Positions 258-6,103 of a stretch of 6,103 bases of DNA are shown in pieces. The notes below the pieces were generated by a model. It was not told the DNA's origin. It saw nothing but the letters and a program-made list of their open reading frames with translations, and ran no database searches. The stretch lies in the NCBI GenBank assembly GCA_013152945.1, contig JAADFL010000076.1:1-6103 (forward strand), written 5' to 3'. Each line of letters begins with the position of its first letter. Positions within the stretch are counted from its first letter, which is position 1. A program made the position numbers and the translations under genes. The DNA comes from Deltaproteobacteria bacterium (lineage in GTDB: Bacteria; Myxococcota_A; JAADFL01).

Positions 258-641
258 TTATACCGGGCTAAGTGCTCTCTTCTTTTCAGGTGGGCGTATC
301 ACCCTGTTTTGCTCATCGACAAATACCAGCCTGGGAACGTGTTTCTCAGCCTCCTTGTCGCTGATGCTCGCATGACTCGCCACTATGATGACATCCCCTT
401 TATGTACCAGGTGGGCTGCTGCACCATTGACGCACACCACCCCGGAACCTCTTTCCCCGGGAAGCGTATAAGTAGACAGCCTGGAACCATTCGTCACGTC
501 CCAGATATCCACGAACTCGTTGGTTAGTATATCGGCTGCATCCATTAGGTCCTCATCTATAGTGATGCTGCCGACATATTCCAGGTTTGCTTGTGTAACA
601 GTGGCTCGGTGGATCTTGGACTTGAGCATGTTGCGAATCAT
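258..641 (-). CDS. panD: aspartate 1-decarboxylase, pyruvoyl-dependent
   Basis: PanD converts L-aspartate to beta-alanine and CO2, the beta-alanine arm of pantothenate and coenzyme A synthesis, in the cytoplasm. The 127-residue product matches the usual PanD length. It begins [13 protein letters not shown], as in the family. Gly24-Ser25 is the self-cleavage site (YVGS) whose Ser becomes the pyruvoyl group. Lys9, Arg54 and Tyr58, known substrate or catalytic residues, are present, as are Asn72 and the VNGAAAH block. The frame is open 39 codons further upstream, but the ATG at 641 is chosen. It gives the family N-terminus, and the cleavage site is at the standard position. It is preceded by AAGGAAGGTGAT, a strong Shine-Dalgarno. 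The gene stands alone, without panB or panC, and diverges from the lipoprotein gene. All active-site residues look intact. Confidence 0.96.
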
Positions 642-643
642 GA

Positions 644-656
644 CATCACCTTCCTT
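644..656 (-). promoter_or_regulatory. panD ribosome binding site
   Basis: The minus strand reads AAGGAAGGTGATG just before the ATG at 641. This is the full anti-Shine-Dalgarno complement with one extra A. It decides the short PanD start over the longer upstream-extended frame. Confidence 0.8.
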
Positions 657-732
657 TTTTAAACGCCTGGATAAAAAATGACCGGCAGGCCCTAAAGAGG
701 AGGGAGAGTCTTTACTCCCATGAACTACCCGT

Positions 733-752
733 CTCGGTCCGGCTCGGTCCGG
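733..752. repeat. 10-bp tandem repeat in panD leader
   Basis: CTCGGTCCGG occurs twice, perfectly and without a gap, followed by atcc. On the minus strand it lies about 90 nt upstream of the panD start, inside the predicted leader RNA. Because CCGG is self-complementary, the two copies can pair as a 4-bp stem with a 6-nt loop. It may be a regulator-binding site or a replication-slippage duplication. Confidence 0.6.
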
Positions 753-858
753 ATCCAAGCGTCTCTTTTCAAAGCCGGGTCAAATCTCAATATTGCGGCC
801 TACAGTCCGTTCCCCTGGTACTGCGCCCGGCAAACGATTCAACCCGTTCCTGTATACT

Positions 859-948: not shown

Positions 949-996
949 GCCTTGAAAATGAGGTTCCCGGTATCAACAAAGTCGAAAAAGAGCGAG

Positions 997-1002
997 AGGA
1001 GG
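997..1002 (+). promoter_or_regulatory. ribosome binding site deciding the lipoprotein start
   Basis: A perfect AGGAGG lies six bases before the ATG at 1009. The alternative in-frame ATG at 952 has no comparable site. Confidence 0.8.
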
Positions 1003-1008
1003 AGAGCT

Positions 1009-2004
1009 ATGGGCAGGTATGAAAAGCTTGCGATGTCTATGATATTCCTTGCAATGATGCCTGGATGCAAGTCCAGGCCATGGGTCAAGACTGCGCAAGA
1101 GTACTTGGACACCCTGGAGGACAAGGATTTTGCCAAGGCTTACGGCATGCTTGACGAAGACAGCCAAAAGGCCATCACCCAGGCAAAGTTCGAGGAAACG
1201 GTAAAAGACAAGCTGCTCGATAAACTTCCTTACGTTAGAATCAGGAAGTATATGAAGTCCGCCAACCAGTGCACCATAGAAACAGACTTTACGGGAAAGA
1301 TGAAGGCGCACAACTCCGATGTTTCGGCCAAGGTGACATTGGAACTGACCTTTGAAAGGGGCAAGTGGAGAATACACCTTCCCGACGCCATCCAGGCATA
1401 CCAGGAAGAACTGGCGAAAAAAGCGGAAGAAGAAGCCAAGAAGCAGTTGGTGGCCGAATGGAAGGGGCTCTTGGATTTCAAAGATATCAAGATATCAAGG
1501 TATAAGCCGACTCCCGATGAGATCGAAATGCTCAAGGCGAAATCACCCAGGCTTAAAAAAAGAGATGAAAAGGACAAGCATTACGAAGAGGTCGGTGAAG
1601 CTGAAGAAAAAGAGATAGAATGGCTCCAGATCCCATGGTGGGCTGTAAGTGGCGAAGTAATGAACCGCGGCCAGAAGGTCGTGGACAAGGCGGGACTATA
1701 TTTCAAGTTTTATTGGAAAGACGATCCGCGCAAGAGAATGCTATACGATGCGGTTGTGTACCCAGTCTATGAACAACCCGATGATGATCCCAAATACAAC
1801 AAGGAAGTCCTGTTGCCCGGACAAACACAGTCCTTCCAGGAAGTAGTCGATCTGGTCGACCTGCCGGCCGACTGGACCATGGATAAAGGCAGGATCGAGT
1901 GGGAGCTGTCCGACATAGCTGTGTCTGCTCCAACTCCAGAGCAGGAAAAGAAGATAGAAAAACTGAAAAAAAAGGCAAAGAAACACCACAAGAAAAGAAG
2001 ATGA
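1009..2004 (+). CDS. probable lipoprotein with NTF2-like and C-terminal beta-sandwich-like domains
   Basis: I recognise no named gene. The start at 1009 has AGGAGG at ideal spacing and gives a 331-residue protein. Residues 1-20 form a short export signal: basic start MGRYEK, a hydrophobic run, then MMPGC. Cys20 is the likely lipidation site, although Met at -3 and Pro at -2 are not typical of a lipobox. Residues 27-127 resemble NTF2-like/DUF4878-type domains. They show helices of the 'A..YL..L..KD...AY..L...SQ' pattern, then strands ending in FERGKWRIHLPDA. Residues 128-205 are a Lys/Glu-rich, probably helical or coiled-coil linker. Residues 206-305 look like a beta-sandwich of the FxLYD kind (WAVSGEVMNRG, VYFKFYW-type strand, LLPGQTQSF). 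Residues 311-331 are a strongly basic tail ending HHKKRR. It probably sits in the envelope. The domain calls are by pattern only. It converges on the HAD gene and appears monocistronic. Confidence 0.75.
   Translation: MGRYEKLAMSMIFLAMMPGCKSRPWVKTAQEYLDTLEDKDFAKAYGMLDEDSQKAITQAKFEETVKDKLLDKLPYVRIRKYMKSANQCTIETDFTGKMKAHNSDVSAKVTLELTFERGKWRIHLPDAIQAYQEELAKKAEEEAKKQLVAEWKGLLDFKDIKISRYKPTPDEIEMLKAKSPRLKKRDEKDKHYEEVGEAEEKEIEWLQIPWWAVSGEVMNRGQKVVDKAGLYFKFYWKDDPRKRMLYDAVVYPVYEQPDDDPKYNKEVLLPGQTQSFQEVVDLVDLPADWTMDKGRIEWELSDIAVSAPTPEQEKKIEKLKKKAKKHHKKRR
1059..1078 (+). other. 7-bp stem in mRNA centred on the lipobox Cys codon
   Basis: GCCTGGA and TCCAGGC are perfect complements separated by six bases. 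The Cys20 codon TGC opens the loop. This could be chance or a translational pause hairpin at the signal-peptide junction. There is no U-run, so it is not a terminator. Confidence 0.25.
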
Positions 2005-3000: not shown

Positions 3001-4008
3001 TCATCGGGAACTGCGTATTCGATCACTCTCCATCAATGACTTGAGAAATCCTCCGGGTTTCTTTTTGCCGGCCAGGACCCTTGCCAAGCTTTCGAAAACA
3101 GGCAATTCAACACCAAGCTTGGCACCCAGCTTGACCGCCGCCCTTGCAGAAGCCGCCCCTTCACTTGACCTCAGCCTCAACTTTATCTCCTTGCTCAGTT
3201 TACCGGATCTCCCGAGGGTAAAACCTATTGCATAGTCATCTCCCGATTCCGGGCCGCAAGAAGCAACCAGGTCCCCTACCCCGGACAGGCCGGAAAATGT
3301 CCTGTTTTCCGCCTCCAACCTTGATCCGAGCCTCCTCATTTCACGAAGACACTCTGCAATGAACATGGCCTTCAGATTCCTGCCTGTTTTCAGGCTCTCC
3401 AGTATGCCGCATCCCAGGGCCGCCGCAGGCGACAGTGCTCCCGCCAACTCGGCACCTGCCAGATCCCGAGTGCTGAAAACCAAGAAATTCTTGGATGAGA
3501 GGATATTCTTCATCTCCTGTACCACCAGGTCGAAGTACGAAGCTGCTACGGTTGCTATCGGCATGCCACGCGCCACTTCTGCAGCAAGGTTTGGTCCTGA
3601 AAGCACGCCCAGCAGCCTGGCGCATGTCTCCTGCTTAATTACCTCGCTAATCCTGTTACAAGACGGATATTCCAACCCCTTGACAGCATGGACAACCAAC
3701 TGGTTACCACGAAAATATGAGCTTGCCCTGCTTAAAACCTTACGAACCATGAAAGACGGCAAGACAATCAATATCACTCTGCAGGAATCTACAACTTGTA
3801 TGATATCGGTTGTTGCACGAATCTTTTTGTCCAGCTTCAAGCCCGGCATGTACTTCGAGTTCGTACCCCTTTGAACAATCTCGGATGATACATCCTGCTC
3901 ACTCGCCCAAAGGCGCACTACGCGTCCGTTACGCGCAATCCTGTCGGCCAGCGCTGTTCCCCAGGCTCCAGCCCCTATGACACCAATTGATTGCAAGGCC
4001 AAGGTCAT
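3001..4008 (-). CDS. GpsA-like glycerol-3-phosphate dehydrogenase homologue lacking key active-site residues
   Basis: By fold this is the NAD(P)-dependent glycerol-3-phosphate dehydrogenase family (DHAP to sn-glycerol-3-phosphate). At 335 residues it has the normal GpsA length. Conserved blocks are a GAGAWGTALA Rossmann motif (12-21), VKGLE with Lys110, SGPNLAAEVARG (137-148), AELAGAL (186-192), LREMRRLG (221-228) and GLSGVGDLVASC (240-251, Asp246). The family's catalytic Lys-Asn after AGAL is Ser193-Pro194. The SRNR block that grips the substrate phosphate is replaced by GDDY (Asp257-Asp258). The Thr before Cys251 is Ser250. The frame is clean, so these are not sequencing frameshifts. It overlaps the acyltransferase stop by ATGA, so the two are probably translationally coupled. 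GGAGG sits only one base before the ATG but seven before a TTG at 4002, which could be the real start. It is probably a divergent paralogue with changed or lost catalysis, so I do not give it the symbol gpsA. Confidence 0.88.
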   Translation of the reverse strand: MTLALQSIGVIGAGAWGTALADRIARNGRVVRLWASEQDVSSEIVQRGTNSKYMPGLKLDKKIRATTDIIQVVDSCRVILIVLPSFMVRKVLSRASSYFRGNQLVVHAVKGLEYPSCNRISEVIKQETCARLLGVLSGPNLAAEVARGMPIATVAASYFDLVVQEMKNILSSKNFLVFSTRDLAGAELAGALSPAAALGCGILESLKTGRNLKAMFIAECLREMRRLGSRLEAENRTFSGLSGVGDLVASCGPESGDDYAIGFTLGRSGKLSKEIKLRLRSSEGAASARAAVKLGAKLGVELPVFESLARVLAGKKKPGGFLKSLMESDRIRSSR

Positions 4009-5644: not shown

Positions 5645-6103
5645 CTACCTCTTCCTCTTGAGTAAGGCAAGGCCAATAAAGGCCATTACCAGCAATCCGC
5701 CGGATCCACCTGCATGCGTCGAACAACCGCAGCCATCTGAATTGACCTTGGAAAGATCTATAGTGAATGCAAACAAACCCGACCATGGTCCGGCTGCATC
5801 GTGTTCATCCACGGCTCTGGCCTTCCATACATAGGAGCCTGCACTCGGCAGAGGAACATCGGGTTGCCATAAAGTCTGGCCTGCATTACCGGCTTTCACT
5901 TTACCGGAGGAAGCAACCGCTGTGGAGTCACCTCTGCCAGGATATACTTCGAACTCATAGAATACCTTGTCACCGTCAGGATCAGAAACATTTTCCAATT
6001 TAAATGCAGGAGTCAATACCCGGACTCTTTCCCCGTTTCCAGGACTCAATAGATCAGGTGATGTCTGTGGCGGATGATTCGTGCTTCCGGTATCCGTATC
6101 CGT
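5645..6103 (-). CDS. C-terminal part of a MYXO-CTERM-tailed surface protein (5' end outside window)
   Basis: The frame stays open to the window edge, so only the last 152 residues are present and the true start lies beyond 6103. A TTG at 6049 is inside the gene and is not its start. The visible part begins with a Thr/Asp/Pro-rich linker (TDTDTGSTNHPPQTSPDLLSP). A fibronectin-III or cadherin-like beta-sandwich follows, with a DPDGD calcium-type loop, YEFEVYPG, and SYVWKARAVDEHDAAGPWS near its end. The tail is GCGCSTHAGGSGG, a hydrophobic run LLVMAFIGLALL, and KRKR. This is the three-part MYXO-CTERM sorting signal of myxobacterial surface proteins, where the Cys is thought to be lipidated and the helix removed by a dedicated protease. 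The stop is 44 bp before the acyltransferase, so co-transcription is possible, although the functions look unrelated. Confidence 0.8.
   Translation of the reverse strand, partial: TDTDTGSTNHPPQTSPDLLSPGNGERVRVLTPAFKLENVSDPDGDKVFYEFEVYPGRGDSTAVASSGKVKAGNAGQTLWQPDVPLPSAGSYVWKARAVDEHDAAGPWSGLFAFTIDLSKVNSDGCGCSTHAGGSGGLLVMAFIGLALLKRKR

Follow-up and report, generated by a model that had tools for sequence, protein, structure and literature searches.

The window analysed here is the entire 6,103-nucleotide contig C76 of a 4.84 Mb deltaproteobacterial genome assembly. Three overlapping genes on its reverse strand encode an acyltransferase, a GpsA-fold protein and a phosphatase (Table 1). The stop codon of the upstream acyltransferase gene and the start codon of the GpsA gene share four bases (ATGA), and the listed GTG start of the phosphatase gene, which lies downstream of GpsA, overlaps the 3' end of the GpsA gene by 26 bases. 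Scans for promoters and terminators returned nothing above chance. The phosphatase has an APP1_cat domain (33.5 bits; cut-off 27.1), and its DxDxT motif was seen directly. PanD (TIGR00223, 174 bits; cut-off 106) is ordinary apart from an N-terminal extension of the listed open reading frame, which is probably untranslated. The MYXO-CTERM signal in the frame at the contig edge fits a genome in or near Myxococcota.

Table 1. Genes and open reading frames of the window
Feature	Position	Strand	Remarks
Aspartate 1-decarboxylase PanD	258-758	-	PF02261
Lipoprotein-like ORF	952-2004	+	Weak NTF2-like MecA_N match
APP1-type HAD phosphatase, 324 aa	2052-3026	-	PF09949, DVDKT; third gene of conserved operon
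GpsA-fold protein, 335 aa	3001-4008	-	ATG at 4008, stop 3001-3003
Short PlsB/GPAT1-type acyltransferase, 531 aa	4005-5600	-	H165-x4-D170 and FFPGGTRSR intact
MYXO-CTERM (myxosortase) protein	5645-6103	-	C-terminal part only, truncated by contig edge

The acyltransferase resembles human GPAT1 in structure and PlsB in sequence: it carries the HX4D and GGTRSR motifs of these enzymes, and among PDB entries it matches GPAT1 8e4y best when compared by structure and 9vuq when compared by sequence profile. The catalytic positions H165, D170, G245, R247 and R249 are invariant across an alignment of 88 rows. It is, however, much shorter than PlsB or GPAT1 (531 against about 800-900 residues) and falls far below the cut-off for full-length PlsB (67.9 against 618.5 bits), with the match confined to residues 147-302. 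The genome additionally encodes a long PlsB-like frame of 916 codons on contig C165.

The GpsA-fold protein has the complete two-domain architecture of its family. Both GpsA Pfam domains match (PF01210, E = 4.4e-44; PF07479, E = 4.9e-30), the NCBIfam NF000942 score of 288.5 exceeds the cut-off of 257, and the AlphaFold model (mean pLDDT 95.1) has Coxiella GpsA as its top structural match (3k96, TM 0.91). With GpsA and human GPD1 it shares the Rossmann dinucleotide-binding motif GxGxxG (GAGAWG, residues 12-17), Lys110 and Asp246, and it retains Asn211. Unlike them, it lacks the equivalents of the catalytic Lys204 with Asn205 and of the phosphate-binding pair Arg269-Asn270 (human GPD1 numbering), which are replaced by Ser193-Pro194 and Asp257-Asp258, the latter within GDDY at 256-259; Thr264 has become Ser250, followed by the family's Cys251. 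Of seven network residues scored (K120, K204, N205, D260, T264, R269 and N270 of human GPD1), only two are left, Lys110 and Asp246, the equivalents of K120 and D260. By comparison, the network is complete (7/7) in every one of 48 GpsAs encoded outside the operon as stand-alone genes and in 37 of the 40 operon GpsAs classed as intact, so the loss in the window protein is no random variation.

The Ser-Pro and Gly-Asp-Asp-Tyr replacements and the retained Rossmann motif, lysine and aspartate had been described in the initial annotation, which also judged misalignment around Cys251 improbable, and our alignments bear it out on each point. The HMMER alignment to solved GpsA structures is ungapped over residues 180-262, so that Ser-Pro falls on Lys-Asn and Gly-Asp-Asp-Tyr on Ser-Arg-Asn-Arg, and a larger family alignment agrees. 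A misalignment or frameshift behind the missing residues was rejected on the strength of the ungapped alignment, the open frame and the confident fold. No lysine or arginine occurs within residues 186-200 and 248-262; K207 and R210, nearby in sequence, could conceivably supply a displaced cation at the site.

In human GPD1, DHAP is contacted by K120, K204, R269 and N270, which are positioned by Q295, N205, D260 and T264 (PMC12874384). The substitutions K204A, N270A and R269A cost 3.1, 5.6 and 9.1 kcal/mol, respectively; R269A lowers kcat/Km 4.5-million-fold, and adding an amine fails to rescue K204A (PMC12874384). In the window protein the K204, R269 and N270 sites are all altered together, with the charge reversed at R269. 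Because five of the seven network residues are replaced, established enzymology makes DHAP reduction by the known mechanism very unlikely, and the earlier suggestion that the protein cannot reduce DHAP normally thus gains strong support from the cost of each substitution and the simultaneous change at all three sites. Standard annotation would label the protein a dehydrogenase.

A search of the genome for a second, canonical gpsA found one (G000:C9:18496-19470) with KN, SRNR and a complete active site, which removes the absence of any other gpsA as an objection to a non-catalytic reading. Likewise, a canonical gpsA accompanies the degenerate copy in 15 of 15 genomes that have only a degenerate operon-type GpsA, and the operon copy is the sole gpsA in 19 of 35 genomes with an intact operon.

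We then looked at the operon among relatives. Scanning genome contigs with the single protein found no relative; a scan with an acyltransferase alignment yielded at least 575 confirmed relatives, of which the best 80 were used. A GpsA lies immediately downstream of the acyltransferase in 64 of these 80 loci, and many then have the phosphatase. The conserved unit is therefore a short PlsB/GPAT-type acyltransferase followed by GpsA and often by an APP1-type phosphatase, and it occurs in Myxococcota and other phyla. By record names, which are fallible for metagenome-assembled genomes (MAGs), the acyltransferase relatives come from Myxococcota, MAGs named Planctomycetota, Sericytochromatia, Fibrobacteres, Bdellovibrionales and others. 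The GpsA set, built from operon loci and whole-genome loci after dropping three rows of another family, and with some rows duplicating one genome, comprised 40 intact proteins encoded in operons, along with degenerate proteins from 37 operon and 8 unlinked loci. GpsA is intact in about half of the compared operons, often as the only GpsA of its genome. The degenerate proteins retain 0-4 of the seven network residues; in their operons the acyltransferase motifs are nonetheless invariant.

Three proteins that a simple rule classed as degenerate (L142, L143 and L145) were rejected, as they belong to another GpsA-like family in which Lys-Asn is retained. Together with L182 and L188-L190 they form a third type of GpsA homologue, with a different phosphate loop (TTxGGRxxRxG or AAAGRNRAFG). 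Separately, four intermediate degenerates directly downstream of the acyltransferase (L076, L091, L094 and L097) have Ser for Lys204 and keep Asn205; some retain the phosphate-loop Arg, and L094 retains Arg-Asn. These proteins may record the sequence of steps by which catalysis disappeared.

All trees were quick searches. The operon GpsAs form one group inside the GpsA tree (support 98), and when all degenerates are included these cluster together on long branches. This single degenerate clade is contradicted by the acyltransferase tree and by trees containing just one degenerate group each, and we discounted it as a probable artefact of long-branch attraction. In the acyltransferase tree, which is free of long branches, the partners of degenerate GpsAs fall in four places, two of them within a clade where most operons are intact. 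A topology constrained to unite all these partners was rejected (AU p = 0.00048), and the minimum number of changes is 3. When degenerate groups were added singly, the window GpsA paired with L092, an intact protein (support 90), and group d was nested in the intact clade (support 95). As the partners of dead GpsAs do not form one acyltransferase clade, catalysis was probably lost at least three times. Repeated loss is the simplest reading of the trees; conceivably, one partner gene was instead swapped inside the operon.

Taken together, we consider it probable, if well short of certain, that the window protein is a pseudoenzyme retained to serve the acyltransferase in a non-catalytic role, as scaffold or regulator. 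The initial annotation had suggested a nucleotide-sensing regulatory subunit of the overlapping acyltransferase. The subunit part of this idea now has genomic support from conserved adjacency, co-occurrence when the genes are unlinked, and repeated loss of catalysis with the operon kept; nucleotide sensing is only plausible. The many intact relatives in operons, which reveal the loss as a repeated one, were beyond the view of the initial annotation. A strict NAD(H)-sensing subunit, in which the dead GpsA would turn the acyltransferase on or off upon binding nucleotide, would be a special case of the non-catalytic partner and is one we regard as rather doubtful. The glycine motif is exact in the window protein and in 31 of 42 degenerates, and the two proteins share an operon, both points in favour of such a sensor; but L046, L047, L049 and L054 have a disrupted motif, and the phosphate pair is lost in the window protein, so sensing of G3P or DHAP by it is unlikely.

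Residue conservation among the degenerates separates the active site from the fold. Near-invariant residues of active GpsAs are largely gone (K193 kept in 0%, N194 16%, N211 3%, C251 3%, N258 5%), and most fold glycines are more than 94% kept. Several residues typical of operon GpsAs and rare in stand-alone ones are also kept (G101 78%, T128 73%, G134 89%, E161 73%, V162 81%, F/Y159 97%); by the secondary structure of the model they map to the ends of strands and helices in the Rossmann domain, probably distant from the active site. Yet operon-specific positions as a whole set are 41% kept against 58% for universal positions under a strict count, so the argument for an interface draws on a hand-picked subset and is just a hint. 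As a separate observation, the lysine of VxxxKG has become Arg in most degenerates (VHxxRGLE, 78%; window residues 106-113), a change that the window protein does not share and that may mark a shared role.

A second alternative, also raised initially, is that the protein is still an oxidoreductase but uses Lys110 and Asp246 to act on another substrate, for example the acyl-DHAP that a DHAP-type acyltransferase would make. We consider this improbable. The window protein does retain the Rossmann glycines, Lys110, Asp246 and Asn211, most relatives keep GxGxxG, and the operon pairs an acyltransferase with a lipid phosphatase. However, the Lys193 position is occupied by S, A, V, G, T, C, R or N in different degenerates, positions 257-258 are equally mixed, and no common new residue appears at the replaced sites; since the replacements differ by lineage, a change of substrate is unlikely to explain the family as a whole. 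In some lineages the glycine motif is itself gone. Moreover, acyl-DHAP retains its phosphate, yet the pair that would bind it is Asp-Asp here, and the intact operon relatives resemble ordinary DHAP reductases.

The dead protein and the acyltransferase tend to be retained together. Of 37 genomes of the same phylum, 20 contain both the acyltransferase and a degenerate GpsA and 16 contain neither; one has the GpsA alone, and none has the acyltransferase alone (Fisher p = 1.3e-9, kinship ignored; the 'neither' genomes were searched directly for the acyltransferase, and the other acyltransferases were located beside GpsA). The two genes lie far apart in 7 of the 20 genomes having both, which is evidence against obligate co-translation. 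In genome G018 a degenerate GpsA was found and the acyltransferase was undetected. Thirteen further genomes have the acyltransferase without an adjacent GpsA; a degenerate GpsA lies elsewhere in four of them by residues and in three by score only, two carry an intact operon-type copy, and in four (G093, G094, G096 and G099) a degenerate GpsA was undetected.

Close relatives of the dead gene are under purifying selection. Pairs of closely related degenerate GpsAs have dN/dS of 0.12-0.23, compared with 0.04-0.10 for canonical copies, and are thus constrained, if less strongly; the window gene has no close relative, and these values refer to other degenerate GpsAs. Three pairs (L114/L117, L146/L147 and L091/L097) had high or nearly saturated values and were set aside; in the first two, the partner acyltransferases have about equally high dN/dS. 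The least probable account, that a redundant gpsA is decaying into a pseudogene once a second gpsA took over, would fit the long branches and faster evolution relative to canonical GpsA, the second gpsA in every degenerate-only genome examined and the seeming absence of the degenerate copy from some genomes, but it sits poorly with frames open in some 40 divergent degenerates, the constraint between close pairs, the preserved glycines and high-confidence fold, and co-retention with the acyltransferase even when unlinked.

We therefore return to the non-catalytic partner. The ancestral GpsA would have been catalytically active and would have shared an operon with a short GPAT-type acyltransferase, to which, judging from gene content, it probably provided sn-glycerol-3-phosphate (G3P). 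Another gpsA would then have taken over the G3P supply, catalysis would have been lost in several lineages, and the dead GpsA would have been retained because the acyltransferase depended on it as a non-catalytic partner, whether as a scaffold for folding or assembly or as an allosteric subunit perhaps still binding NAD(P)(H). Physical contact with the acyltransferase, the direction of regulation and the ligand are what we infer from this scheme. Stated more boldly, and only tentatively, a GpsA whose original task was to supply a dedicated GPAT-type acyltransferase with G3P may have become its obligate non-catalytic subunit several times independently, possibly as an NAD(H)-state switch on glycerolipid synthesis.

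When catalysis is lost repeatedly yet the gene stays next to the same partner, nature itself offers strong evidence for a second, non-catalytic job. If this is true, the intact operon GpsAs would be expected to share that job, which would point to an enzyme pair for the first glycerolipid steps. The idea is testable, as Plesiocystis pacifica and Enhygromyxa salina are both cultured and each carry intact and degenerate operons. Databases label such dead GpsAs active dehydrogenases, which misleads metabolic reconstructions. No paper on a dead GpsA of this kind was found in the open literature searched, of which coverage was partial.

Related arrangements are known from other systems. The dehydrogenase domain of N-PAC/GLYR1 has a dehydrogenase fold without the catalytic lysine and acts as a scaffold; it is only a weak structural match to the window protein (2uyy, TM 0.49) and differs in being part of a eukaryotic chromatin factor in an unrelated pathway. 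Trypanosomatid prozymes are dead paralogues retained as activators of a living enzyme. Whereas prozymes pair with their own active paralogue, the window GpsA would pair with another enzyme from its pathway.
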